Made by a program: the position numbers and the translations under genes. A stretch of 10,134 bases of DNA from Clostridia bacterium (lineage in GTDB: Bacteria; Bacillota; Clostridia; Lachnospirales; WQUN01): positions 1 to 10,134 of the forward strand of contig BNUF01000080.1 in the NCBI GenBank assembly GCA_025997155.1. Direction: 5' to 3'. The notes below the pieces were generated by a model. That model saw nothing but the letters and a program-made list of their open reading frames with translations. It had not been told where the DNA came from and did not search any database. How positions within the stretch are numbered: position 1 is the first letter of the stretch; each line of letters begins with the position of its first letter. Positions 1 to 10,134 of this stretch are shown here, piece after piece.

Positions 1-340
1 AGTTTTTGCTGTATAAAACGTATTTGGACTATAAGGTATTTGAGTACATAGCCTGTAAAGTTCATTCTTTAATAGGCATATTATTAAAGGGACGCTTGTT
101 TGAGGGTTGATTTTATTGTAGCTGTTAATGTCGCCCGATATGGCTTTCTTTAATTATCCAGACGTGTATTGTTCGGCGCATAGCCGATAATATAGTATAA
201 ATACATTCGTCGGGGAGCGTGATAGCTTGCTTGCGGATTAGGCGAAACTTTAAGGACGGCGACTGTGCGTACGGTATGCTCCCTTGGATTTTCTCTGATT
301 GCGGTTGCTTTGAGCGGTATTTCGGCGGTATGTCTTTATA
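1..340. other. Region without a supported gene
   Basis: Several short overlapping open frames exist on both strands here, but none has a good ribosome binding site, a recognisable motif or a clear advantage over its antisense frame. A minus-strand stretch near 1-130 is open for about 44 codons without a start codon, so a broken or truncated gene running off the window edge is possible. I do not recognise it. Confidence 0.4.
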
Positions 341-341
341 T

Positions 342-394
342 AAAAGAGCAGACAAGCCAGAGGAATATCCTATGGTTTATTTGCTCTTTTTTAA
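342..394 (+). terminator. Two-tier hairpin with T tract, terminator-like
   Basis: AAAAGAGCA at 342-350 pairs perfectly with TGCTCTTTT at 382-390. Within its loop a second stem forms: CCA.AGGA (357-364) pairs with TCCT.TGG (368-375) around one mismatch and a 3-base loop. The 3' arm runs into a T tract, and the 5' arm is A-rich, so it could stop transcription from either side. It lies 15 bases before a strong promoter, which would insulate that promoter from upstream reading. Confidence 0.55.
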
Positions 395-408
395 TTTCTG
401 GAAATGAC

Positions 409-437
409 TTGACAAGCCGTATTACAGGTGTTATAAT
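409..437 (+). promoter_or_regulatory. Consensus sigma-70 promoter (cassette A)
   Basis: A perfect -35 TTGACA (409-414) and perfect -10 TATAAT (432-437) are separated by the optimal 17 bases. Transcription would start near 444, reading rightward. The first ATG downstream is at 478, in a frame open to 588 (36 codons) with only a weak GGCGG upstream, so the transcript may encode a very short peptide, a decayed gene, or an RNA. The sequence just before the -35 (CTGGAAATGACTTGAC) resembles the one before the second promoter at 1696. Confidence 0.7.
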
Positions 438-1620
438 GACACAAAGTACCGTTCGGACACACCCGAAACAGGCGGCGATGCATAAGCTTCTTGTGTCGGA
501 GGTCTCCGAAATACATAGTTTGATAACACAGGGCAGATATTGTAATACACGAAATATTGTACTGCAAATCACCCCGAGCTGTCAATAAGATTATGAAAAA
601 TACTTTACAAAGGGTTATTACCTGTCCTAACGCGTTCATCCCAACCAACGGTTAAGCGCGGCGGGACACTAAACACCACGATTTTACGGTACCTTGACAA
701 TTCAGGACAGGCTTTAAGCAGTATTTCGCAATACGGAGTATCAGGATTTTGCGTACAAGCGCAAGGGTTTATGTTGACTATCTTCACCGTCCGTGGTGTG
801 ACGGGTTTTCGATATAAAGCCGCCAAAATCTTATTCGCAAAAAAACCATTTTCTAAGACGGTCTCAATCGGGTTTGAGTTAAACATTCCGAAAACAAGAG
901 GTCGGCAAAGACAACAGGCATACGCGAAAAGACAAGACGGACACCGCCTTTTGCCAAAAACCGCTTAGTACAAAATACATAGTAATTCTAACGCAACTTG
1001 AAAACAAGTTTTCTGTCCGCAATAGCAAAGTTCGTCTATAACTCAATTACTGAACGGAAACTACCTTTTGTACGGCAGCACACGCATTTGCGGCGCAATC
1101 ACCGCCACGGCGGCTCGGCGTACGCGTACAGGAGACTTTTCGGAATTATTTGAGTAAAAAAATTCTGCCTTTATGCTCTAAATGCTATGAGCGATTGTTT
1201 ACGTCTAGATAGAGGCGCGGTTCAACCGGCATATATTCGGCAAAAAGGAAAAGACACATTGATACGAAACAGAGGTATGCGTCCGAGGTAGAATCTGCGG
1301 GGAACGAGAAATTCGCGGAGGAGCGTTAGGGTTTGGACGCTTGCTGTACATTGGCGAATACTCAGTAACAGAGCGCGAAATGCTTACGCGCCGTGAACGG
1401 AATGTAGACTCAAAAGGGATTAGCGCGTAACGCGTGAAATTCTGTTACTGTGAGATAGCCGATAAAGCGGACAAATTCGGAGATGTTTAAGTGTGGCTTA
1501 AAGGGATTGTTGGATTGGGCGGAAAAGCAATATGCCGCTTTGGGACATATTAAAAAAATGTACCCTATGCACGGTTGCGAAGACAGGATTTTATAGACGG
1601 ACGAAAAACGGCAGAAACAA
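438..1620. other. Long stretch with no convincing gene
   Basis: Open frames on opposite strands overlap at 605-886 (minus, 93 codons, no ribosome binding site before its ATG) and about 600-968 (plus, open from about 596, first ATG at 771). Neither gives a product I recognise, and they cannot both be genes. At 1255-1600 the + strand has short coding-like runs that change frame (for example one from ATG 1484, ending at a TAG near 1596). That would fit a decayed gene, but no family can be named. Confidence 0.35.
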
Positions 1621-1625
1621 ACATG

Positions 1626-1645
1626 CCCCGCCTGTTTTGGCGGGG
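1626..1645. terminator. Strong 7-bp GC hairpin
   Basis: CCCCGCC (1626-1632) pairs with GGCGGGG (1639-1645) around a six-base TGTTTT loop. No T tract follows directly, but the A/T-flanked hairpin at 1655-1680 lies ten bases on, so the two may work as a tandem terminator at the end of the gene-poor region. Confidence 0.4.
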
Positions 1646-1654
1646 AGTACATAT

Positions 1655-1680
1655 AAAAAAGAGCGGATACGCCCTTTTTT
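1655..1680. terminator. Bidirectional terminator-like hairpin
   Basis: An A6 run (1655-1660) followed by GAGCG pairs with CGCCC and a T6 run (1675-1680) around a GATA loop, with one A/C mismatch. An A run on one side and a T run on the other is the usual form of a factor-independent terminator working in both directions. It could end minus-strand reading from the phage-like remnants and + strand reading from the left. Confidence 0.55.
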
Positions 1681-1695
1681 AGCTGGGGAAATAAC

Positions 1696-1724
1696 TTGAC
1701 GCAAGGTTATTTTTGCGGTAATAT
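1696..1724 (+). promoter_or_regulatory. Strong sigma-70-like promoter (cassette B)
   Basis: The -35 is TTGACG (1696-1701, one mismatch) and the -10 is TAATAT (1719-1724), with 17 bases between. It follows a terminator hairpin, as promoter A does, and shares CTGG..AAAT.ACTTGAC with it. The first + strand ATG (1755) opens only 20 codons before TAA, so no + strand gene is evident. Transcripts would run antisense to the phage remnants. Confidence 0.6.
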
Positions 1725-1919
1725 GAATGCGAGGATATATAATGACGGAAAAATGAAGAGAGCTTTTGATATGGTCGTTGCAACAAATAGAACGAACATG
1801 CCTTTTGTGACATAATGGAAAATTCGCACGACCTCAAATTTGTTCCCTCGGCACACAATCCAACCATTCCTCTGTTCAAAATCCTGTGAGTACCATGTTG
1901 CGTATGGTAAATCTGCCAT
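1707..1919 (-). CDS. Small unidentified ORF downstream of the scaffold remnant
   Basis: This 70-residue minus-strand frame has a good translation start: AAGGAG lies eight bases before the ATG and overlaps the 3' end of the scaffold gene, as expected of the next gene in a phage head operon. I do not recognise the product. Its first 40 residues (MADLPYATWYSQDFEQ and onward) look like a soluble small protein. The last 30 are strongly hydrophobic and run across a + strand promoter (1696-1724), so the original gene may have been cut and the frame continued by chance into unrelated sequence. A truncated gene is as likely as an intact one. Confidence 0.4.
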   Translation of the reverse strand: MADLPYATWYSQDFEQRNGWIVCRGNKFEVVRIFHYVTKGMFVLFVATTISKALFIFPSLYILAFILPQK

Positions 1920-1922
1920 TTT

Positions 1923-2494
1923 TTACACTCCTTTTTTTATTGCCCTACCCGAAAAGCGAAGTTTTGCGTACCCACTCTCGGATGGCTTATTGTTATTTCC
2001 GCCTGTGCTTACGTTTAGCGTTGTTACTGGGGCTGTCACCGTCTCGGCGGGTTTAACCTTATACTTGCCCTTGTTCTCCGCGTTAAAAGCCGTAAGGGCT
2101 TCCGCGAAAGTAACGCCGCCTTCCGTCGCCAACTTCGATACCGCGAATAAAACATAGTCGCTGTACTGTGCTGTGCGTCGATTCCCTGTTTTAGAACTTC
2201 CGAATGATTGCACAACTGCTCTGCCTCGGATTTCGCGGTTTCGGCTTCTTGCCTGTACTGTTCGAGTAGGGCGGCGTTTTTTTCTTCTGCCGCGAGTTTG
2301 GACGCTTTATATTCTTTAAACTCCGCAAGTTCCTCTTTGGAAGGGAACTTCTTTTGCTCGCGTTCAAGCCGCGCCTTTATTTGCTGGTCAAATTCCGCTT
2401 GGGTAAAAGTTTTTTACGCCGTTTTGGGCGTATCCGTCGCGGGGTTTTCCGCCGTTTGCGCGGTTGCGTCTGTCGTTGTTGCTTGTTCGTCCAT
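1923..2494 (-). pseudogene. Phage capsid scaffold protein (GP20-like), broken
   Basis: GP20-type scaffold proteins guide assembly of the phage head and are lost from the mature capsid. Reading from ATG at 2494-2492, an acidic, Ala/Thr-rich leader of about 26 codons meets a TAA (about 2414-2416). The same frame then continues with KTFTQAEFDQQIKARLEREQ and a highly charged helical, coiled-coil-like stretch typical of this family. Near 2170 the frame shifts. CACAG occurs twice in tandem there, and removing one copy joins the helix to a C-terminal part containing YSDYVLFAVSKLA and ending at TAA 1925-1923. So the gene carries one nonsense codon and one 5-bp duplication. It follows the minor capsid remnant in the order usual for Bacillota siphophages. 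The family assignment rests on the charged helical pattern, the FTQAE(F/L)D motif and gene order. Confidence 0.75.
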
Positions 2495-2567
2495 AGTTTA
2501 GTCATCCTAAATTTTAACGCGATAGTTTGCGTCCGCCGTTTAACGCCCGTCGGCAGTTATTAAGCCG

Positions 2568-3290
2568 CTATTCCAGTAGTCCCGCCTTTTCGCTGAAATC
2601 CTTATACAATGCGTTCCGCGACTTTAACGCCGCCCTAGCTACTGTCAACTCTGTTTTAGCTTCGTTGCCTAACCCCTTGTAGGCTATAATCTCGCGCTTC
2701 GTCTTTCTGATTGCGCGTTCAATGCTCCGCTGTTTTTGGCTTGCTTCGTACGCCTCGTACTTTTTGCCGTTGTAGGTAAACGGCGGCGGGTCAATGTTTT
2801 TAAGCTGTTCCTTAGTGTATCTAGGGGTTGTAAACCCTAGGAATATCTACCATTTAGAGTGTCGGCAGTTAGCGTCTTCCATTTCGCCTCCTACCACGTC
2901 GGAGAAAACCTCATAGCCTAAATCATTCTCCGCGATAGCGTAAATCCCGCCCTGCTAGACGGCGTGGGAGGGACGCGCCACCACATGCGCCGAAATCTCG
3001 TACCCATCACAACCCATTTCGCGGGCGTTCATTTCGGATATTCGGTTTGTGGTGTCTTTAAGTCCCGATATAACCGCGCGGCGTACCGCAACGTCAACTT
3101 TATCTCTGTGTTTTGATTCGTAATCGACTACTTCAAGTCCGCTGTCCGCAAGTGTTTTTACCTGTCTTTTGACGGCTGAAATGTAATCACTCGCCCCGCT
3201 TGCGACTTGCGCGTAAGCGGTGTTCACGGCGTGGATATATGCCTGTTCCATAGGCAACCCCACCATACCGATTGAGGCGGTAAACCTTAG
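2568..3290 (-). pseudogene. Phage minor capsid protein 2, 5'-truncated, two amber codons
   Basis: Proteins of this family sit at or near the portal in Gram-positive siphophages. The frame is open from the IS boundary (3290) to TAG 2570-2568, about 240 codons, interrupted only by TAG at 2957-2955 and 2849-2847. Family hallmarks appear in order: an AYAQVASGASDYISAVK helix, GLEVVDYESKHRDKVDVAVR, an R..V..G segment, ARPSHAV before QGGIYA, NCRHS, then DPPPFTYNGK and a basic helix with KQRSIERAIRKTKRE. The first amber falls where the family normally has Trp (PSHxxWQG), a single TGG to TAG change. The N-terminal part is missing, cut by the IS5 remnant. The reading frame is otherwise undisturbed, which suggests recent decay. 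Confidence 0.85.
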
Positions 3291-3310
3291 AGCCTGTTCA
3301 AAATCTTTTT
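3290..3310. repeat. Terminal inverted repeat of an IS5-type element (one end)
   Basis: GAGCCTGTTCAAAATCTTTT at 3290-3309 has the form of IS5/IS427-group ends. The transposase stop codon (TGA, 3300-3298) lies inside it, as is usual for that group. I see no matching second repeat at the other side (around 3564), so only one end of the element survives. Confidence 0.65.
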
Positions 3311-3564
3311 ATGAGTACGGCAATTAAAGCCAAAACAACCATTTGGAAAGAATTGTGAATTTTGCGTTCGCAGTTTTTCCAAAGCCTGCGAGCTTTGTCT
3401 AACCAGCCGAATACGCTCCGCTCCACAACCCAACGTTTTGGTAATACCGCAAACGTGTGGAGTTCCTTACGCTTTACAACGGAAACATCTGCTCCGCACA
3501 GCTTTTTTACGGCATTGGCGAAATTTTCTCAAGAATATCTGCCGTCTACAAGATATTTTTGAGG
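3298..3564 (-). pseudogene. IS5-family transposase, C-terminal fragment
   Basis: About 88 codons of a DDE transposase C-terminus remain. The fragment opens with KYLVDGRYS (the D.GY-type segment around the second catalytic Asp). It is broken by TGA at 3531-3529, then continues with ENFANAVKKL, VVKRKELHTFAVLPKRWVVE, FGWLDKARRLWKNCER and a hydrophobic tail ending in KRF. PKRWVVERxFxWL is the diagnostic IS5/IS427 stretch carrying the third catalytic acidic residue. The N-terminal two thirds, with the first Asp, are absent, so it is inactive. Plus-strand open frames over the same bases are its antisense shadows. Confidence 0.85.
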
Positions 3565-3822
3565 AAAATGATATAGACGATTTTGTGAATAAACTCAGTT
3601 CTATGAATGATTATAGATTTAGTTCATCCGATGTTTGAACATAGGTGGGGACAGCGTGTGATTCGTTTTTACGACCCTGATAAACATATATATTGAAGTC
3701 GGCGAAAATATAGACATAGTTGTTAAACGGTTTATCGACAGCGGGCTGTCTGTTGTCGATAAACCGCCGTTCGTATGTACGTGCCGATTGATTATGTTAA
3801 AGCCGTTGCGCTGAAAGGATAA
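3564..3822 (+). pseudogene. VOC/glyoxalase-like protein, C-terminal fragment, frameshifted
   Basis: VOC-fold proteins are metal-dependent enzymes or binding proteins such as glyoxalase I and bleomycin-resistance proteins. The fragment starts at the IS border with DIDDFVNKL, a helix typical of the second half-domain. It continues with HRWGQRVIRFYDPDKH, whose WGQR.(I/V)RFYDPD motif is characteristic. After that come IEVGE, VVKRFIDSGLSVVDK and VPIDYVKAVALKG before TAA at 3820-3822. Three frame changes are needed: near 3635 (GTTTGAA), in the AT repeat near 3690, and near 3770 where one A appears lost before CCGCCG. The tail after EVGE (MxxVVKRFxxSG...VPxxYV) is an extension I associate with a clostridial subgroup. 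The 5' half is missing. The gene sits 7 bp before the yjbQ-like remnant, implying a former operon. Confidence 0.8.
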
Positions 3823-3829
3823 AAGGAGA

Positions 3830-4233
3830 ATGAAATCATACCGAAAAGAACTTCACTTCAACACAAAGACACGTCGCGCCTACATAAACATCACGCCGCA
3901 GTTACCGAGATTGGAATCCGCGAGGGGTTATGCCTTGCAAACGCTATGAACATCACGGCAAGCGTGTTTATCAACGATAACGAGAGCTATCTGCGCCGCG
4001 ACTTTGAGCGTTGGCTTGAAAAACTCGCGCCATAAAAACCTTACAACCAGTACGGTCACAACGGTTATGAAGATAACGCTGACGCTCACTTGAAGCGTAC
4101 TGTTATGGGGCGTGAGGTTGTTGTCGCCGTTACAGACGGCAAACTTGACCTCGGCACTTGGGAGCAAATTTTCTACGGCGAGTTTGACGGTGTGCGCGAC
4201 AAGCGGGTTTTAGTAAAGATTATCGGTGAGTGA
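3830..4233 (+). pseudogene. yjbQ: YjbQ/UPF0047 family protein, broken
   Basis: YjbQ proteins are small trimeric enzymes with secondary thiamine-phosphate synthase activity in vitro; their physiological role is unclear. The start is sound: AAAAGGAGA then ATG at 3830. The frame gives [19 protein letters not shown] then NITPQ, and a small deletion and frameshift near 3900 follows. The next frame runs through [33 protein letters not shown] and a TAA (4033-4035) where the family continues. It goes on through YQYGHN-like sequence, [35 protein letters not shown] and [10 protein letters not shown], ending at TGA 4231-4233. Overall length matches the family (about 135-140 residues). NAMNITAS carries Asn where relatives I remember have His, probably a further lost active-site residue. 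Confidence 0.88.
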
Positions 4234-4439
4234 CGGCATTTGTCTAAGCAAACAAAAGTCCGTCTCAAAGACAAGGTGAAAAGATGTTAAACAGCCCCTA
4301 AGCCACAGACAGCCAGACTACGACCTTATATTTAGTCCCAACATGGTTTCTGGCGAAGAGATTATGAGCGTCAACGCAAAGCGCGTGGCAGAGTTTGATA
4401 AATGTTATCGTTTGTCTAAAACTGAAAGGGGCAAGCATT
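4234..4439 (+). other. Gap between the broken chromosomal genes and the small-gene array
   Basis: No gene with a proper start is evident. One + strand frame is open from about 4285 to TGA 4466-4468 and reads plausibly (for example DYDLIFSPNMVSGEEIMSV), but it lacks a start codon in frame and a ribosome binding site, and it runs into the next gene. It could be a broken small gene. A weak promoter candidate (TTGATA at 4396 with a poor -10) is not convincing. The true boundary of the mobile element may lie here. Confidence 0.3.
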
Positions 4440-4604
4440 ATGAAAAAGAAGTACACAACCTACGATGACGCAATCAAACAGTACAACATCTACTTTGGGA
4501 AAATCCCGACGTTCAACGAGATAACTAATCTGTATCACAAGTACCGTAACGAGTGGAAACATTTTGACGGGTTCACAGATTGGCTCGTATACCACACAGA
4601 CTGA
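4440..4604 (+). CDS. Small unidentified protein, first intact gene of the array
   Basis: This 54-residue protein starts at ATG 4440, preceded by GAAAGGGGCAAGC, a variant of the GAAAGGAGCAAA site found before several genes here. An in-frame ATG 45 bases upstream lacks a ribosome binding site. The product is rich in Tyr, Lys and Asn (YTTYDDAIKQYN, IPTFNEITNLYHKYRNEW, FDGFTDWL) with no transmembrane segment, signal peptide or Cys. The pattern suggests a compact helical protein. I do not recognise a family. It is separated from the next gene by 57 bases containing a hairpin. Confidence 0.7.
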   Translation: MKKKYTTYDDAIKQYNIYFGKIPTFNEITNLYHKYRNEWKHFDGFTDWLVYHTD

Positions 4605-4617
4605 ATCAACAAGCCAA

Positions 4618-4637
4618 GCCGGGCGGCAATTCCCGGC
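4618..4637 (+). promoter_or_regulatory. Intergenic hairpin GCCGGG/CCCGGC
   Basis: GCCGGG (4618-4623) pairs perfectly with CCCGGC (4632-4637) around an eight-base loop. No T tract follows, so it is unlikely to be a simple terminator. It sits five bases before the AACCGAAAGGAGCAAA translation site of the next gene. A similar CCGGGA/TCCCGG hairpin precedes the gene at 5854, so an RNA-processing, stability or translational role is possible. Confidence 0.5.
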
Positions 4638-4661
4638 ACACAACCGAAAGGAGCAAACGCT

Positions 4662-4814
4662 ATGAAAAAGTTTAATGTCTATATGCCGACAGAACGCGGC
4701 GGGTACAAATGGGTTGGAGAGGTCGAAGCTGAAACGGAGCAAATAGCATTTGACATAGTGAATTACGACCCGTACAACGGTAGACCGTGGACACTTCAAG
4801 TGCAGGAGGTGTAG
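4662..4814 (+). CDS. Small unidentified protein (50 residues)
   Basis: ATG 4662 follows an excellent ribosome binding site (CCGAAAGGAGCAAACGCT). The 50-residue product begins MKKFNVYMPTERGGYKWVGE, then VEAETEQIAFDIVNYD and ends at TAG 4812-4814, two bases before the next gene's ATG. Alternating hydrophobic residues at the N-terminus, a short helix, then a Pro/Trp turn suggest a small beta-alpha-beta fold. It resembles the short single-domain proteins that clostridial mobile elements carry in rows, but I cannot name a family. Its own 3' end carries the GGAGG site for the downstream gene, so the two are probably translated together. Confidence 0.75.
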   Translation: MKKFNVYMPTERGGYKWVGEVEAETEQIAFDIVNYDPYNGRPWTLQVQEV

Positions 4815-4816
4815 AA

Positions 4817-5149
4817 ATGAAACTTAGAGAACTTTTGGAAAGCTACAACAGCAAGCCGCAGGACGTTGACCTCTACCATTGGGATTACGATGAGGAATCC
4901 GCGACAATGGTTGACCTGTCAATGAAAGGCTTTACGGAAGCCGGGTTGGAAGAATTCAAGAACGTGTTGGACGCAGAGGTTGTTCGGGTAACAGCAGAGG
5001 GCGAAAACTGGGTGTCAGTATTCGTTAAAGGTGTCAACCACAATCGCGTAGCGGAATTATCATATGCTCATTCCGGCAACGTGACACAGGAAGAATACGA
5101 CAGGCTATTTACTATGGACACGAGCGGTGAAAAGGAGGACGCGCAATGA
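4817..5149 (+). CDS. Conserved-looking acidic protein of unknown function
   Basis: ATG 4817 is chosen because GCAGGAGGTGTAGAA lies just upstream; an ATG ten codons earlier has no such site and lies inside the previous gene. The 110-residue product opens with MKLRELLESYNSKPQDVDLY, followed by a WDYDEES turn. It then has an alternating helix and strand pattern (EFKNVLDAEVVRVTAEGENW, VFVKGVNHNRVAELSYAHSG) and a charged tail. It is soluble, acidic and Cys-free. The KLxELLxSYNxKPQDVDL opening followed by a DAEV core is something I associate with a domain of unknown function in clostridial genomes, from memory only. Its stop overlaps the next start (ATGA, 5146-5149), so translation is coupled. Confidence 0.8.
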   Translation: MKLRELLESYNSKPQDVDLYHWDYDEESATMVDLSMKGFTEAGLEEFKNVLDAEVVRVTAEGENWVSVFVKGVNHNRVAELSYAHSGNVTQEEYDRLFTMDTSGEKEDAQ

Positions 5150-5406
5150 AAATCACAGGAATCAAAAAGGCTGTTGGAGATTTTAACTCTTGGCAGGGAA
5201 CAGCAAGGATATACTTTGATAGTTCAGACGGAACAGTATGGACGAATGTATACGCCGGAATGAATGAATGGGACGAGTACCACAGCAAAACCATATCCCA
5301 AATATACAGCAAATCAACAAGCACAATTTGGGAGCGTGATAATAAAATCACAATGCGTGAACTAAAAGAACTCTGTGAAAACGAATTAAGGAGGGTTAAG
5401 CTATGA
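5146..5406 (+). CDS. Unidentified 86-residue protein, translationally coupled
   Basis: The gene starts in an ATGA overlap with the preceding stop, with AAAGGAGGACGCGCA as its ribosome binding site. The product has a beta-rich first half (ITGIKKAVGDFNSWQGTARI then TVWTNVYAG with several aromatics). An ERDNKITMRELKELCENEL helix follows at about residues 62-82, after which it ends in basic residues. There is no membrane segment. The sequence resembles small proteins seen repeatedly in gut Clostridia mobile elements, but no function is known to me. Its stop overlaps the next start in another ATGA (5403-5406). Confidence 0.78.
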   Translation: MKITGIKKAVGDFNSWQGTARIYFDSSDGTVWTNVYAGMNEWDEYHSKTISQIYSKSTSTIWERDNKITMRELKELCENELRRVKL

Positions 5407-5570
5407 AAATCAAACAAAGGCTTGATACCGGGCTGTTTTTCATAGTCAAAGAAAACGACGAGTTTCTGAAAAACGCAAAAGGCATTATCTATTTCGCTGA
5501 CATGCGCGACGCGGAGAAAATGGTACAGCACATCAAACGGCACAATACAGCATTTGAAAGGAGCGAGTGA
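5403..5570 (+). CDS. Small unidentified protein (55 residues)
   Basis: The start at ATG 5403 overlaps the previous stop, and GGAGGG lies eight bases upstream. The 55-residue product opens MKIKQRLDTGLFFIVKENDE and continues FLKNAKGIIYFADMRDAEKM to a His/Arg-rich helix ending in ERSE. The pattern of strand, strand, then a helix beginning DMRDAEKMVQHIK is like very small alpha/beta proteins. It has slightly basic character, unlike most neighbours. Its last codons carry the GAAAGGAGCGA site of the following gene, one base from it, so this is part of the same translated unit. Function unknown. Confidence 0.75.
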   Translation: MKIKQRLDTGLFFIVKENDEFLKNAKGIIYFADMRDAEKMVQHIKRHNTAFERSE

Positions 5571-5571
5571 T

Positions 5572-5766
5572 ATGTTAGACCCGAAGAATTTGAAGCCCTG
5601 CGAGGAACAGTACGAGGAATTTGAAAGCGGACCGAGTTATAGACGCAAGACGTATGTCCAATACGATTATCGTGACAAGCACGGCGAACTGTTCAGCATT
5701 GTCAAACCGACGCTCGAAAGTTGCCGCCGCGCCCGTGATATTTGGGAGAATCACGAAGTTTGCTGA
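5572..5766 (+). CDS. Small unidentified protein (64 residues)
   Basis: ATG 5572 lies one base after the previous stop, with GAAAGGAGCGAGTGAT upstream; a longer in-frame start at 5554 would lie before that site and is rejected. The protein begins MLDPKNLKPCEEQYEEFESG and continues with a strand pair (YVQYDYRDKHGELFSIVKP). It finishes with a helix (LESCRRARDIWENH) and a Cys at the end. There are three Cys in all, not arranged as a recognisable metal site. No family is recognised. It is followed by 87 bases with two hairpins, the longest gap in the array. Confidence 0.72.
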   Translation: MLDPKNLKPCEEQYEEFESGPSYRRKTYVQYDYRDKHGELFSIVKPTLESCRRARDIWENHEVC

Positions 5767-5772
5767 ACCGAA

Positions 5773-5790
5773 ACGCTCCGTGTGGAGCGT
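5773..5790 (+). terminator. 7-bp intergenic hairpin
   Basis: ACGCTCC (5773-5779) pairs perfectly with GGAGCGT (5784-5790) around GTGT. It starts seven bases after a stop codon. No T run follows, so termination is uncertain. It is immediately followed by a second hairpin, and the pair may protect or process the mRNA. Confidence 0.45.
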
Positions 5791-5791
5791 C

Positions 5792-5813
5792 TGCCGGGAA
5801 CGACCTCCCGGTA
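5792..5813 (+). promoter_or_regulatory. Second intergenic hairpin, CCGGGA/TCCCGG
   Basis: CCGGGA (5794-5799) pairs with TCCCGG (5806-5811), extended by a G-U and a T-A pair, around a six-base loop. Its core matches the hairpin at 4618-4637, and both precede a gene with a GAAAGGAGCAAA site, here 20-odd bases further on. Confidence 0.45.
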
Positions 5814-5853
5814 CTGACGAGGTAGGTCAAATATCGAAAGGAGCAAAAAAATT

Positions 5854-6261
5854 ATGAGCAGTTACACAGAGCAAGCCGAGCAGTTCTTAAAGGATTGTGG
5901 CGCAAAATTGAAAGTCGAATATGTCGAATACGATTACTACTTCGACAACGATAAGGAGAAGCGCGACATCTACCGCTTCAAAATCATGCGAAACGGCAAG
6001 CAGTATTCGGCAAAGTTCGGACAGAGTATAGCAAAGTCCAACGATGACGAAAAACCGACAGCCTATGACATACTGGCTTGCTTGCAGAAGTACGAGCCGG
6101 AAACCGATATGTGGGACTTTGCTCACGACTATGGGTACGAAGTCCACGGGCGCACTGATTACGAAAAGGTAAGCCGAATTCACAAGTCAGTTGGACGCGA
6201 GTGGCGCGGTGTAAAGCGGTTGTTCGGAGATGTTCTTGAACAGTTGCAAGAAATTTCGTAG
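5854..6261 (+). CDS. Conserved mobile-element protein of unknown function
   Basis: ATG 5854 follows TCGAAAGGAGCAAAAAAATT. The 135-residue product opens with a helix (TEQAEQFLKDCGAKLKVEYV). It then has strands (YRFKIMRNGKQYSAKFGQS), an Asp-rich turn, a TAYDILACLQKYEP segment and a C-terminal pair of helices with EKVSRIHKS and VKRLFGDVLEQLQEIS. I recall similar proteins (FLK at the N-terminus, FGQSI, YD(I/V)LACLxKYxP, FxxEFGYxxDxR, and a VxRLF..E..LQEI end) as common hypotheticals in clostridial prophages and conjugative elements. The function is not known to me. Length agrees with those relatives, so it is probably complete. Confidence 0.82.
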   Translation: MSSYTEQAEQFLKDCGAKLKVEYVEYDYYFDNDKEKRDIYRFKIMRNGKQYSAKFGQSIAKSNDDEKPTAYDILACLQKYEPETDMWDFAHDYGYEVHGRTDYEKVSRIHKSVGREWRGVKRLFGDVLEQLQEIS

Positions 6262-6273
6262 GGGGAATTTTAT

Positions 6274-6516
6274 ATGCCCGAAAAGAAAAGCGATATTGTT
6301 CGTCGGTTAGTAACGGACGGCGAATACAAGAAGGCATTGCGGATAGCAAAGGACTTTCGGCTTGGGATAAGCAAAGCAGATTCCGAAGCAGTGAAGCGCG
6401 GATATGAATGTATGCTGTACCCCGGCACTTATGCCCAGTTAGGGATTGATACGGACAAAGCCGTTGAAAGTGGTATCAGTACCCTATCAAGGCTGTATGG
6501 AGGTGGGTGTGTATGA
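6274..6516 (+). CDS. Small helical protein of unknown function
   Basis: ATG 6274 has GTAGGGGGAATTTTAT upstream, with the site overlapping the previous TAG. The 80-residue protein is mostly helical: MPEKKSDIVRRLVTDGEYKK then ALRIAKDFRLGI, DSEAVKRGYECML, and a final ALxSGISTLxRLYGG-like helix. The pattern DIVRRLVxxGxYKKALRIAKDFRLGI followed by KRxYECM is one I recall from small hypothetical proteins in Bacillota phages and plasmids. It has no catalytic motif. Its last codons supply the GGAGG site and its stop overlaps the start of the next gene (ATGA, 6513-6516). Confidence 0.8.
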   Translation: MPEKKSDIVRRLVTDGEYKKALRIAKDFRLGISKADSEAVKRGYECMLYPGTYAQLGIDTDKAVESGISTLSRLYGGGCV

Positions 6517-6725
6517 AACTGTACGGAGTGTGTATTGGGAGTTATGTCAGCGAGGACGGTTTTGCCTTTTTCACTTGCAACAACAAAACGGAAGCGCGTA
6601 AACTCGGCAACCAGTACCGCAAAGCGTGGGAGATTACCGACCCGATAGTGAAAATCGTTGAAATTCCGGAGTCAATCAGAGATGACAACGAAGAACGCAG
6701 AAAATATGCCGTTATATCGGCTTAA
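6513..6725 (+). CDS. Small unidentified protein (70 residues)
   Basis: The ATG at 6513, inside an ATGA overlap and seven bases after GGAGG, is preferred over a GTG at 6507 that would sit on the ribosome binding site. The product begins MKLYGVCIGSYVSEDGFAFF, has NKTEARKLGNQYRKAW as a helix, and ends with a charged segment (IPESIRDDNEERRKYAV). A strand-helix-strand layout with a short C-terminal strand is likely. It could bind nucleic acid through its basic helix, but that is only inference. The TAA stop (6723-6725) is inside the AACCGAAAGGAGCAAA element of the next gene. Confidence 0.76.
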   Translation: MKLYGVCIGSYVSEDGFAFFTCNNKTEARKLGNQYRKAWEITDPIVKIVEIPESIRDDNEERRKYAVISA

Positions 6726-6742
6726 CCGAAAGGAGCAAAACT

Positions 6743-7342
6743 ATGAGCAAGAAATTTGACCCCAACAGCACCTACGAACTGCTGAAAGCGGCTTGCAAGA
6801 ACGAAGCGGCAACCCTTGAAAGCGTAGGCAAGCACGTCAGCCGTACTTGCGGCGAGTGCAGTAACTGCATTAAACTCGACCACACAATAGCGCGTGAAAG
6901 AGGGCTTGAAGTAAGCGCGGATTACTATTGCGAAGCAAAATCGACCCTTGATTTAGAGGGTTGGGACGACGATTATTATGAAATTTCGCCCGATGACGAT
7001 TATGACGGCGAAGACCACGGCGATTGGAATTGCCGAACCAAAGAAGCCGAGCCTTGTGCCGACTTCGACCTCAAAATCGGCATACCCGAAGAACAGTTTT
7101 ACGAGGATATGATTGACTGGCTCAACAATCAGCTTGACATCGAGTACACAATCACCTCACGCGGCGAGTATAAGAGCGGTACGGTATGCACAGGCACAGG
7201 AGGACCGAACATAGAGGTTGACACAGGCGCGGGTTGCGTCAAGGGTTACTGGGGTAACGAAACCGCGACCGCACACGTTGACAGCGACGCGATAAACAGG
7301 CTTGATGAAGCCCTTGAAGAACTCTACGATTGCACAAAGTAA
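6743..7342 (+). CDS. Acidic Cys-motif protein, largest of the array
   Basis: ATG 6743 follows CCGAAAGGAGCAAAACT. The 199-residue product contains C36-x2-C39-x2-C42, then C63, C97 and C105, spaced as a small metal-binding or iron-sulfur site might be. Residues 75-94 are a run of Asp/Glu and aromatics (DDDYYEI, DDDYDGEDHGDW). By my count it has about 45 acidic and 18 basic residues, a net charge near -27. The second half has a predicted helix (PEEQFYEDMIDWLNNQL), then a Gly/Thr-rich beta region and a final helix. The CGECSNC knuckle followed by further Cys resembles zinc-knuckle domains of small mobile-element proteins, but I cannot assign a family. DNA mimicry by the acidic part is speculative. 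Confidence 0.8.
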   Translation: MSKKFDPNSTYELLKAACKNEAATLESVGKHVSRTCGECSNCIKLDHTIARERGLEVSADYYCEAKSTLDLEGWDDDYYEISPDDDYDGEDHGDWNCRTKEAEPCADFDLKIGIPEEQFYEDMIDWLNNQLDIEYTITSRGEYKSGTVCTGTGGPNIEVDTGAGCVKGYWGNETATAHVDSDAINRLDEALEELYDCTK

Positions 7343-7357
7343 AACGGAGGGGTTAAA

Positions 7358-7618
7358 ATGTCACAGTATCAGAGTGGGGACTATAATGTCACCTATTGGG
7401 TAACAGGGGAATGCAACGAGTGGTACGAGTTCCGGGTCGAGAAATTCGACAAAAATGACAAGGTCGTGCTTGACAAGGTGGTGCTTATTGCGATAGACGA
7501 CGTGTCAAGGGAATTTATTGGTAATTCGTATCTTGCAGATATGGTTGCAAAAAGTGTTCCTGTCAGAGCGAAGATTAGGCTTGAAAAGAATCCTCCGTTC
7601 GTTGTGAAAAGAATTTAA
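7358..7618 (+). CDS. Unidentified 86-residue beta-rich protein
   Basis: ATG 7358 has CGGAGGGGTTAAA upstream. The product shows strong strand alternation (YNVTYWVTGECNEWYEFRVE, then VVLDKVVLIAI) and a short helix (SYLADMVAKS). It closes with PVRAKIRLEKNPPFVVKRI, which gives a basic C-terminus. A small beta barrel or beta sandwich is plausible. It has a single Cys and no membrane segment. It lies 15 bases after the Cys-motif gene and 13 before the next, within the same presumed operon. No family is recognised. Confidence 0.77.
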   Translation: MSQYQSGDYNVTYWVTGECNEWYEFRVEKFDKNDKVVLDKVVLIAIDDVSREFIGNSYLADMVAKSVPVRAKIRLEKNPPFVVKRI

Positions 7619-7631
7619 GGAGGAATAGCTA

Positions 7632-7964
7632 ATGAGCGAAGACTATAACGACAAATACGGGATTATTTGTGAGGACAACGGGTGGGAGGTACACGAAGAA
7701 GAAGCGACCGTTGAACTCGGGAAACAATCTCCGGCGGGTGAGGACTTTTGGTTCACCGCCGACAAGGAAAACTTCGTCGATAGCGTGAAACAGTACGCCG
7801 CTGATTTTAACATCGACGAGCATATTGAGATGTGGATTGAAGCGCGAAATTCCGGTGTGAGCGGCGTTCCCTCCACGCGGGAACTTGTTAAGGACGCAGA
7901 AGACATTGACAAAATGCTCCAAGAACTGGCGGCGGTTCTTGCAAGAGAGGAGGAAAAGCAATGA
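7632..7964 (+). CDS. Acidic helical protein of unknown function
   Basis: ATG 7632 follows AAGGAGGAATAGCTA, a near-perfect site overlapping the previous stop. The 110 residues comprise an acidic N-terminus, a SPAGEDFWFTADKENFVDSV segment, an aromatic DEHIEMWIEAR segment, and a long C-terminal helix (RELVKDAEDIDKMLQELAAV then LAREEEKQ) likely to form a coiled coil. I count 29 acidic and 10 basic residues. The SPAGEDFWF...NFV..VK.YA..F..DEH.E.WIEAR pattern is, from memory, frequent in hypothetical proteins of clostridial mobile elements. It ends in an ATGA overlap (7961-7964) and so is translated with the following gene. Confidence 0.82.
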   Translation: MSEDYNDKYGIICEDNGWEVHEEEATVELGKQSPAGEDFWFTADKENFVDSVKQYAADFNIDEHIEMWIEARNSGVSGVPSTRELVKDAEDIDKMLQELAAVLAREEEKQ

Positions 7965-8314
7965 GATTTTTTGTTGAACGAACAAGTGAGCATAACAACC
8001 GAAATCCGTTAGCAAACAGCGCGAGAATGGTTACTACCGTTAATGGGCGCGACAAGTATGATGTTCGCACTTGTGATGAGGAAACGTACAATACGAAATT
8101 TAACAGAAAATGGCGTTCTTGCGGTAAAGACCATTGCGTCCTCGAAAACGGGAGTATTCAGAGAACAGTAAAGAGCGAACGCGATGAGTATGCTATAACC
8201 ATTAGTTCACTCGGCGACTTGCTTGAATTTATTCGTGAGGTCGGGTGTGAAGTAATTATCAATCTCGACAATCCACAACCAACACTTGAAATCTATGACG
8301 GTTACAGAGAATAG
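7961..8314 (+). CDS. Unidentified 117-residue protein
   Basis: This gene starts in the ATGA overlap with GAGAGGAGGAAAAGC just upstream. The first half is basic and Asn-rich (FFVERTSEHNNRNP, then NTKFNRKWRSCGKDHCVLEN). The second is acidic with a helix (SLGDLLEFIREVGCEVII) followed by a strand and a TLEIYDGYRE end. C110-free; its Cys residues (including the SCGKDHC pair) could bind a metal together with His, but the spacing is not a standard finger. The contrast between a basic first half and a hydrophobic second suggests two small subdomains. No family is recognised. Confidence 0.77.
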   Translation: MRFFVERTSEHNNRNPLANSARMVTTVNGRDKYDVRTCDEETYNTKFNRKWRSCGKDHCVLENGSIQRTVKSERDEYAITISSLGDLLEFIREVGCEVIINLDNPQPTLEIYDGYRE

Positions 8315-8325
8315 GAGGTATCTAA

Positions 8326-8670
8326 ATGGCACGAATTATCGAACTTAACGCGAAGCAATTCGCGGACAGGCTTCGCGAGTTAAAATTGGACGAAAGCCTT
8401 GACTTCGCGATAGACAACGACCATTCCACGGAGGACGTTGCGGAAATGACCGAAAGTAACCTTGAAAGTTGGTACGGAGCAAAGCGGCTGTTTCTGTTTG
8501 ACAATGACTTTATCGTGGTATCGCACTACGGCTATGGTTATAGTGGTACGGTATCACAAGGCGACAGCGCAGAGAACAATGATTACTTCAACGAGGACGT
8601 TGAGAGTATGTTGGAATGTATCGGGACGGAAACCGTCTATATTGTAGAAAAGCAGGAGGTAGAGCAATGA
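8326..8670 (+). CDS. Acidic unidentified protein upstream of the clamp-like gene
   Basis: ATG 8326 follows TAGGAGGTATCTAA. The 114 residues begin ARIIELNAKQFADRLRELKL, a strand plus helix, then an acidic stretch (DFAIDNDHSTEDVAEMTE). A beta region follows with KRLFLFDNDFIVVSHYGYGY, then acidic residues and a final strand (TVYIVEKQEVEQ). It is clearly acidic overall. The stop overlaps the ATG of the sliding-clamp-like gene (ATGA, 8667-8670) and its last codons hold that gene's GGAGG site. The two are therefore made together and may act together, for example as a clamp partner, but nothing in the sequence proves it. No family is recognised. Confidence 0.78.
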   Translation: MARIIELNAKQFADRLRELKLDESLDFAIDNDHSTEDVAEMTESNLESWYGAKRLFLFDNDFIVVSHYGYGYSGTVSQGDSAENNDYFNEDVESMLECIGTETVYIVEKQEVEQ

Positions 8671-9218
8671 AAATCACTATTTCGGCAACTGACGCGGCGG
8701 CAATCCGTGCCGCTATGAAAGACATCATAGGCAATACGTTATCGTTGGCAGAAAAGTTTAAGGTTATCGGTTTGCGGAGTGAATCCGGCAAGATTACAGC
8801 ATTTGTCTGTGACGGCTACCGCCTTATTCAAAAGACTGTTTCGTCCTTTGGCGTGTCCGACGAGGGGATAATCTATACGCCCCTGTTCGATAAACCGAAA
8901 GGTAAGGAAGCCGTGCTTGAATTTGAATCTGACGGAAAGCAAACCACGATAAAGACAACCGGACTTGAACCTCCGCTGACTGAAACGTCGGTAACGTACA
9001 AACTTCCCAGTGGCGAGATGTTTGACCCGCGCAAGGTTTTTCCGGAAACTGACAGCTTTACCTATGAAATCGGTGTAACCGCTAAATACCTTTCATCGTT
9101 GCTTAACGCAATGAGCGGAAAAGTGGTTAAACTCAAATTCCAAGATAGTAATACAAAACCGTTTATCTTGGAGTGCGGAGATGAGGAACTGGCTCTGCTT
9201 GTACCTTGTAGGATATAG
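8667..9218 (+). CDS. Short sliding-clamp-like protein (DnaN/beta clamp related)
   Basis: Beta clamps encircle DNA and tether polymerases and repair factors. This 183-residue protein starts at the coupled ATG 8667, with GCAGGAGGTAGAGCA before it. An in-frame ATG 17 codons earlier is inside the previous gene. Three stretches match clamp landmarks. GKITAFVCDGYRL (41-53) corresponds to the L..(A/V)TDG.RLA segment. PSGEMFDPRKVFPE (114-127) corresponds to (V)DG.FPDY..V(I/L)P at the end of the middle domain. EIGVTAKYLSSLLNAM (134-149), then VKLKFQD and the terminal LALLVPCRI, match E(I/L)GFN..YL...L.AL, V.L..... and the YLVMP.RL end of the last domain. A canonical clamp has about 370 residues in three domains. 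Here one middle-type domain and roughly the last half of a third remain, or else a single domain with an insert. The frame is intact and ribosome binding is good, so it is not a decay product. Whether it forms a ring, loads onto DNA or interferes with the host clamp is unknown. Confidence 0.78.
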   Translation: MKITISATDAAAIRAAMKDIIGNTLSLAEKFKVIGLRSESGKITAFVCDGYRLIQKTVSSFGVSDEGIIYTPLFDKPKGKEAVLEFESDGKQTTIKTTGLEPPLTETSVTYKLPSGEMFDPRKVFPETDSFTYEIGVTAKYLSSLLNAMSGKVVKLKFQDSNTKPFILECGDEELALLVPCRI

Positions 9219-9240
9219 ACTGAAAGGAGTGCAAACCGAA

Positions 9241-9600
9241 ATGATAAACGACATAGTATTTTCCCCCGACGGAATAGGACTACGCACGATACACAACGAA
9301 AACGACAGTTTCACGGAAGTAATCAGCTTCGATAAGGCGCGGAAAATATCGGACGCTTTGGAACTGTACTACGCTATGGAAGATGTCCGCTCACATCTTC
9401 CCGACAGATACGAGCAAGGCGGCACGGACGAAAACGGCGACTATCTGTACGACCGCGATAAATACACAGAGTCAGCAATCCGCGCTATCTCGCAAGAGGT
9501 AGTGGAGCGAAAGAGTGACAACTCAAATATTCAAGAAACCTACTTCTTCCTTATTGATTGGGTTCTTGATGACTATGACGAGGGAAAGGTGATTATATGA
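9241..9600 (+). CDS. Unidentified 119-residue acidic protein
   Basis: ATG 9241 follows CTGAAAGGAGTGCAAACCGAA. A longer in-frame start at 9181 lies inside the clamp-like gene and is rejected. The first 25 residues form strands (INDIVFSPDGIGLRTIHNEN). A helix with KARKISDALELYYAMEDV follows, then an acidic DENGDYLYDRDKY loop, a second helix (ESAIRAISQEVVERK) and a C-terminal TYFFLIDWVLDDYDEG segment. Acidic and soluble. Gene position directly after the clamp-like protein might point to DNA metabolism, but no motif supports it. The stop overlaps the next start (ATGA, 9597-9600). Confidence 0.77.
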   Translation: MINDIVFSPDGIGLRTIHNENDSFTEVISFDKARKISDALELYYAMEDVRSHLPDRYEQGGTDENGDYLYDRDKYTESAIRAISQEVVERKSDNSNIQETYFFLIDWVLDDYDEGKVII

Positions 9601-10010
9601 ACAACACAGTATTCGATATATGGGAAAACAAGCACCAAAACGACTATCGCGGCGAGTTTGATGACAACGGGCTTATTAAGTATCTCGAAGACCTACGGAT
9701 TGAAACAAATGAGATAGCGGCGTTCATAGCGGAGTTATCAGACGCTGAACCAAGCGAGGAAGCACACACGTTATATCTTCGGAGCGACTGGACTATTGAT
9801 GTCGTTAAGACGAATAAGTCTATGTCCTATCCCGAGTTTATACAGCGCGTATATGAGGAATACAACGTGTATAGCCCGTGGTTTAATGAGTTGTTCCGTA
9901 ACGTGCTTGACGAATCGGCAGAACTCGATCCGAAAGATGTTTTTGGATTTCTCGACCGTATGTTACCCGACGAATTGCCAAGACAATGGATTAAACGATT
10001 AGAGATTTAA
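9597..10010 (+). CDS. Unidentified 137-residue protein, last gene of the array
   Basis: It starts in an ATGA overlap, with GAGGGAAAGGTGATTAT before the ATG. The protein is largely helical and acidic. A FDDNGLIKYLEDLRIETNEI helix is followed by a short strand region (HTLYLRSDWTIDVV). A second helical half contains YPEFIQRVYEEYNVYSPWFN, NVLDES and PKDVFGFLDRMLPDELPRQW. There is no membrane segment and no Cys. The second half, rich in aromatics, looks like a compact helical bundle. No family is recognised. It ends at TAA 10008-10010, after which the sequence becomes very A-rich, so the operon may end here. Confidence 0.78.
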   Translation: MNNTVFDIWENKHQNDYRGEFDDNGLIKYLEDLRIETNEIAAFIAELSDAEPSEEAHTLYLRSDWTIDVVKTNKSMSYPEFIQRVYEEYNVYSPWFNELFRNVLDESAELDPKDVFGFLDRMLPDELPRQWIKRLEI

Positions 10011-10130
10011 GACCAGCTATTAAAAGTCAATAGGTAACTTAAAAAAATTTTAGTAAAAAATCAAAAACCACAGAAATGAAAAAATAACACGAAAAAAAGA
10101 CCTAATGACATAGAAAAGGCGAGTGACAAA
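10011..10130 (+). other. A-rich intergenic stretch
   Basis: The top strand is strongly A-rich with runs of five to seven A, unlike the array before it. A weak 5-bp hairpin (CTATT 10017-10021 with AATAG 10029-10033) follows the last stop, too weak to call a terminator. No convincing promoter pair is visible. The stretch could be a leader for the gene that appears to start at its end. Confidence 0.4.
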
Positions 10131-10134
10131 ATGT
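10131..10134 (+). CDS. Possible start of a further gene, cut by the window edge
   Basis: An ATG at 10131-10133 follows AAAAGGCGAGTGACAAA, a moderately good ribosome binding site (AAGGCGAG) at usual spacing. Only one codon is in the window, so nothing can be said about the product. Same strand and similar leader to the array suggest it continues the same region. Confidence 0.3.

Follow-up and report, generated by a model that had tools for sequence, protein, structure and literature searches.

A half-length relative of the bacterial sliding clamp that probably keeps the partner-binding pocket without forming a ring

Results

A half-length clamp-like gene in an array of small genes

The DNA analysed here, hereafter the window, is a 10,134-nucleotide stretch of a Clostridia bacterium (contig BNUF01000080.1, positions 1 to 10,134; assembly GCA_025997155.1), and it carries on its forward strand the gene P0001 (8667..9218), whose intact frame of 183 residues, closed by a TAG stop, is related by profiles and a predicted fold to the DNA polymerase III sliding clamp (DnaN, beta) at about half its length. 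P0001 lies within 17 small genes on the same strand (4440-10010). A ribosome-binding site, AGGAGG (8654..8659, + strand, read directly from the sequence), stands 7 bases 5' of the ATG, and the start codon shares an ATGA (8667..8670, + strand) with the stop codon of the upstream gene, an overlap through which the two are likely translationally coupled. A first-pass annotation made from the letters alone had described an intact, coupled and well-initiated frame with four landmark motifs of the middle and last clamp domains in order within 183 residues, and frame, overlap, ribosome-binding site and all four motifs were found in place.

P0001 resembles the sliding clamp in sequence and predicted fold

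Several profiles agree on the clamp assignment. The C-terminal clamp domain PF02768 aligned with residues 133-176 at an E value of 0.0032 and 17.7 bits, short of the Pfam cut-off of 27 bits, and TIGR00663 matched at E 0.0068 and 15.4 bits, short of its curated cut-off of 137.65 bits. Two phage protein families also matched, phrog_947 at E 1.8e-4 (residues 129-183 on profile positions 310-365 of 368) and phrog_3007 at E 0.0023 (residues 1-163 on positions 3-163 of 190). A Pfam clamp search of the genome itself ranked the host DnaN first (E 9.9e-21) and P0001 second (E 0.0074). Searching 50,697 phage records (2.3 Gb) by tblastn at E <= 10 gave two matches, with E values of 4 and 9, both to the C-terminus of a full-length DnaN; the frame adjoining one of these two genes is presumably recF. 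A profile of 124 half-length relatives, P0001 excluded, gave P0001 19.9 bits against 7.5 bits for the best of 2000 shuffles, 119 of these 124 having been collected with a five-row alignment in which P0001 was one row. The alignment to this profile continues through the domain joint of P0001 up to the final residue, and among the 110 frames of the window P0001 scores best by the half-length-relative profile (20.1 vs 2.7 bits). With a profile from 31 DnaN sequences (28 relatives, the host and two phage proteins, after a motif filter had removed L034 and L037) P0001 scored 12.4 bits, the best shuffle 7.3. No single match is strong; the weak scores agree, and on sequence grounds the resemblance is greater than chance. 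Taken together they point to a clamp relative, in form nearer the half-length kind than the full clamp, and the DnaN-like character proposed in the first-pass annotation is borne out by these matches and by the predicted fold.

P0001 covers E. coli beta residues 126-251 and 311-366 only, whereas a DnaN has three domains and about 370 residues. The domain II-like part (residues 1-126; 8667..9044, + strand) contains CDGYRL at residues 48-53 and most of GEMFDPRKVFPE at 116-127. The second half of domain III (residues 133-183; 9063..9215, + strand), from YEIGVTAKYL to LLVPCRI, abuts domain II directly, E. coli residues 252-310 being without counterpart. Two clamp domains had originally been read here; the middle one stands, and of the last only the second half is present. 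The predicted model has the clamp fold in the part shared with DnaN and lacks the second helix of domain II. That helix lines the DNA channel in full clamps, as does the first one of domain III; P0001 has a counterpart to neither.

Pocket positions are filled and ring-interface positions are empty

The clamp pocket is the site at which DNA polymerases, the delta subunit of the clamp loader and repair proteins dock through a clamp-binding motif (CBM). For E. coli beta, a 2024 review (PMC11139829) gives 18 distinct pocket residues and, in its section 5, 13 dimer-interface residues, all in agreement with the E. coli sequence used here. We compared these positions across 54 half-clamps, divergent relatives chosen out of 200: 17 pocket positions are occupied in all 54 and residue 344 in 48, and the 13 interface positions of that list are empty in every one of the 54 and in P0001 (0/13). 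The occupancy pattern of P0001, pocket filled and interface empty, is thus that of the half-clamps. When two blocks of such lengths were placed on E. coli beta, 50 of 34,410 placements kept the pocket and lost the interface.

Conservation follows the same division. Identity of the half-clamps to E. coli is 0.77 at pocket positions and 0.22 elsewhere. Because two conserved words close to pocket residues had guided the scan of viral loci, the test was repeated outside the stretches around those words, where identity was 0.69 at 11 pocket positions and 0.18 at 121 others (p 1.4e-5). P0001 itself resembles the 31 DnaN more at pocket positions than elsewhere (p 6.5e-4), and its change of His175 to Tyr gives the same residue as in 24 of the 31.

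The same architecture is present in phages

The P0001-type architecture is already present in phages, as PHROG family 3007. Examples are Burkholderia phage Bcep43 gp15 (L074:2456-3037; 193 residues), noted in its record as 'DNA Pol III b subunit fragment', Sodalis phage SO-1 gp7 (172 residues; 'possible moron'), Escherichia phage TheodorHerzl gp07 (172 residues), 101114BS4_017 (184 residues) and Vibrio phage 1.115.B gp46 (204 residues). A tblastn search with SO-1 gp7 matched 275 phage records, counted by match alone, with at least 80% of the query covered in 252. A five-row alignment search gave 4788 of 7998 scored proteins at E <= 0.01, under a length limit that shuts out whole DnaN and may admit DnaN fragments; the 120 matches listed measured 165-218 residues. 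At 80 viral loci 79 frames were found, 76 of them of half length (170-292 residues); the three others (157, 326 and 365 residues) were excluded from that set. Among the titles and abstract openings listed from open-licence papers none described half-length clamps, and the kind, known from phages, is apparently unstudied, with P0001 of the same architecture.

The label of phrog_3007, both in PHROGs and across many phage records, is 'RusA-like Holliday junction resolvase'. Pfam does not bear it out in the proteins scanned: the four phage members match the clamp central domain PF02767 and no RusA family (E <= 1), and no RusA family was found in P0001 at the same threshold. The profile also matches the domain II part of two of the three DnaN scanned, and in the phylum 77 of 398 genomes have a match to it in frames of full-length size. 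Parts of DnaN are likewise matched by two other shortened phage families, phrog_6615 (214 residues) and phrog_12598 (275 residues), which by sequence suggests other ways of cutting the clamp.

The settings of the phage half-clamps vary. In SO-1, TheodorHerzl and Bcep43 the half-clamp is the only gene on its strand among head genes (in two of these phages, also spanin genes) that run the other way, and in 101114BS4 (L080) it shares its strand, opposite to head-region genes, with one further gene. We read this opposite-strand setting in the head region as moron-like; it spans two phage genera (L075, L076 and L080, Dhillonvirus; L074, Naesvirus). In Vibrio phage 1.115.B the half-clamp sits amid small genes close to an ERF recombination gene and a RepL gene. 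Among 122 neighbouring frames scanned from 24 loci, DNA primase phrog_1156 occurred in four, and the 25 of 119 families that were listed included several DNA polymerase families, helicases, HNH endonucleases and repressors.

P0001 is a distant outlier

No close relative of P0001 was found among 5.8 billion proteins (113 candidates, P0001 itself only), nor in IMG/VR, genome_contigs or 295 related genomes. Two weak matches in the 295 genomes (E about 0.0097), by eye a repeat-like protein and an integrase-like frame, were judged to be chance. Residues 84-182 also had weak matches in 57 plasmid records (best E about 1), which were dropped as clamp relatives, the one protein read having no clamp motif; in both records examined the matched small proteins adjoin HipA genes.

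Searches for a second case in cellular genomes returned mostly ordinary clamps. Among the matches listed, a PF02768 search of 146 relatives and a search of 391 genomes from the class with the half-clamp alignment gave almost exclusively frames of full-clamp size and no second convincing half-length clamp. The odd PF02768 frames were of 97 residues (genome G109, E 2.2e-11), of 88 residues with two stops (G054, E 0.016) and of 290 residues in G049 (E 0.0085) and G113 (E 0.037); the half-clamp alignment gave a 235-residue frame at a contig start (G750). In the genome of P0001 the Pfam clamp search gave one further odd frame, of 287 residues (C91, E 0.52). In the 398 phylum genomes phrog_3007 found frames of 361-494 residues only, at a threshold (E <= 1e-8) that would miss divergence like that of P0001.

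In a 43-row tree P0001 attaches to the branch that separates half-clamps from DnaN, with a terminal branch of 3.16 and support of 94/89 (not starred). By pairwise identity its nearest match is the full-length DnaN of a gut phage (28% across 155 columns), ahead of the half-clamps at no more than 23%. At the 16 near-invariant half-clamp columns P0001 is identical in eight (D19, G35, D49, G50, R52, G116, Y141 and R182) and conservative in five of the remaining eight.

Neighbouring genes and the rest of the window

Neither the coupled upstream gene (8326..8670, + strand; 114 residues) nor the downstream gene (9241..9600, + strand; 119 residues) has a convincing match among Pfam or PHROG profiles. 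A Pfam scan of 14 of the 17 array genes gave one clear family, PF12989, in a DUF3873 protein (5572-5766, + strand; E 1.6e-19); this family is common on conjugative elements. Phage families of unknown function match weakly at 5854-6261 (phrog_4273, + strand; E 3.5e-6) and 7961-8314 (phrog_11889, + strand; E 2.2e-5). Residues 125-197 of a 199-residue protein (6743-7342, + strand) align at 45% identity with a region of Vibrio phage 142E35-1 that carries the annotations conserved hypothetical and putative DNA-binding domain protein. Searches with the neighbouring genes for related elements returned three distant phage records, one weak genome match (G163, E 3.1e-5) and otherwise nothing. A CBM-like pattern was not found in the 17 array proteins.

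Left of the array, a 103-residue frame (2958-3266, - strand) matches phage minor capsid protein 2 (PF06152) over profile positions 138-235 of 366 only (E 2e-27) and is a decayed or broken phage head gene. By eye, positions 1-4400 of the window look decayed, with few intact genes and many short interrupted frames.

Discussion

A pocket protein without a ring

We read P0001 as a reduced clamp relative, probably a soluble pocket protein that does not form a ring, most likely a CBM decoy or adaptor, and give this reading a probability of about one half. It draws directly on homology, architecture, predicted fold, the absence of the interface positions and the conservation of the pocket across the family. 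Binding of CBM partners, or a decoy role, is favoured because the retained parts are those that build the binding pocket. Domain II joined straight to the second half of domain III would supply the pocket-building parts, the ring-closing parts and several DNA-lining helices being gone, so that P0001 would bind clamp-binding motifs without encircling DNA. As a decoy it would rival the host clamp in binding one or more CBM partners; as an adaptor it would hold such a partner on behalf of the element. A monomeric state, CBM binding and either role are what we infer for P0001 itself. According to PMC11139829, a monomeric beta mutant binds the loader delta subunit about 50 times tighter than the dimer and cannot provide Pol III with the tether needed for processive replication; a clamp that has lost its ring and kept its pocket could therefore compete effectively.

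Several observations weigh against this reading. The pocket of P0001 is identical to that of E. coli at 7 of 18 positions, and its replacements include Pro242 by Phe, Thr172 by Cys, Asn320 by Thr and Met364 by Cys; because the pocket is altered, CBM binding is not assured. The pocket is conserved in full-length clamps as well, so that part of the conservation signal is inherited. A profile search against both clamp domains, suggested at first pass, succeeded at sub-threshold level for the C-terminal domain and failed for the central one, PF02767 giving no match to P0001. When P0001 alone was compared by hhalign with 30 DnaN, its C-terminal part reached a probability of 46.7% and its domain II part 1.2%, and with five phage half-clamps the value was 6.4%; sequence support for the domain II part, taken alone, is weak. 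The fold model is largely driven by 60 relatives, and a single-sequence AlphaFold model reached a confidence score (pLDDT) of 33.8 only. Finally, among the proteins, IMG/VR, genome_contigs and the 295 genomes no relative was near enough for measuring selection on P0001.

The main rival is a constructive one, in which the pocket would bind a replication protein of the element or host and aid the element's own replication, as an adaptor or processivity aid, with no competition with the host clamp. Some phage half-clamp neighbours are primases, DNA polymerases and helicases, which speaks for this role and against our own reading, and the ERF and RepL genes near the 1.115.B half-clamp point the same way. 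The isolated, moron-like position in SO-1, TheodorHerzl and Bcep43, the single companion gene in 101114BS4 and the lack of a polymerase among the 13 of 16 other array genes scanned by Pfam argue in the other direction, and we regard this role as rather unlikely.

Ring formation, in which several P0001 copies would close a ring through a new interface as the two-domain subunits of PCNA and gp45 do, appears improbable: each subunit has about 1.5 domains, the 13 interface positions listed in PMC11139829 are absent from P0001 and from 54 of 54 relatives, and the helices that in full clamps line the DNA channel (the second of domain II, the first of domain III) lack a counterpart in P0001. The trimer ring entertained in the first-pass annotation finds no footing in a subunit of about 1.5 rather than two domains in which every beta dimer-interface residue of section 5 of that source is missing, and a poisoning of the host clamp through entry into its ring is unsupported, with both sides of the known interface gone. 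Slightly more improbable still, P0001 might be a decaying remnant of a full-length dnaN without present function, as the decayed PF06152 fragment in the left part of the window (2958-3266) and the very long branch (3.16) could suggest; against this stand an intact frame with a good ribosome-binding site that overlaps an intact neighbour, an identical cut in 54 divergent relatives picked from 200, and pocket positions kept better than the rest of the protein.

A wider and more tentative extension of the ring-less pocket reading, which we think possible though doubtful, is that mobile elements anciently or repeatedly cut the clamp down to its pocket, making a ring-less decoy that would capture the clamp loader (delta) or the polymerase of the host and thereby seize or block replication, with P0001 a far outlier in a bacterial element outside the known phages. 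The clamp pocket serves bacterial replication and repair as a hub, and antibacterial compounds are aimed at it. A pocket without a ring, if true, would be a natural tool for uncoupling partner binding and DNA tethering and a new way in which phages and plasmids could control host replication, and would give a testable function to many phage genes now called hypothetical, 'DNA polymerase III beta subunit' or 'RusA-like'.

Comparison with known systems

Among known proteins with which P0001 can be compared, the trimeric clamps PCNA and T4 gp45 have two full domains per subunit according to PMC9690074, whereas P0001 has about 1.5. Phage Twort Gp168, described in PMC11139829 as a clamp inhibitor that binds the clamp DNA channel, is likewise a mobile-element protein, and P0001 would similarly interfere with the clamp pathway; it would do so by mimicking the clamp and binding its partners, not the channel. 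Mycobacteriophage Waterfoul gp48, a phage clamp that was toxic in a screen (PMC11797047, PMC9339283), was ruled out as evidence for half-clamps, having 376 residues. With DnaN (E. coli beta and the host protein, G000:C3) P0001 shares the fold of residues 126-366, the pocket position and the C-terminal motif; it differs in lacking domain I, the first half of domain III and the dimer interface, and over the shared part it is 18% identical to the host DnaN and 20% to E. coli. In form the PHROG 3007 half-clamps stand nearer to it. Four named members measure 172-204 residues against 183, the direct junction of domain II with the second half of domain III falls at one and the same cut (E. coli about 251/311) in P0001 and 54 relatives, and the interface parts are absent in both; SO-1 gp7, TheodorHerzl gp07 and 1.115.B gp46, like P0001, terminate at the last clamp strand. 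In contrast to the family, P0001 is 13-25% identical to 60 aligned relatives, has KFKVIG and VCDGYR in place of the signatures RYYLNG and ATDGHR, and lies not in a recognisable phage but in an array that we read as plasmid-like or like an integrative and conjugative element.
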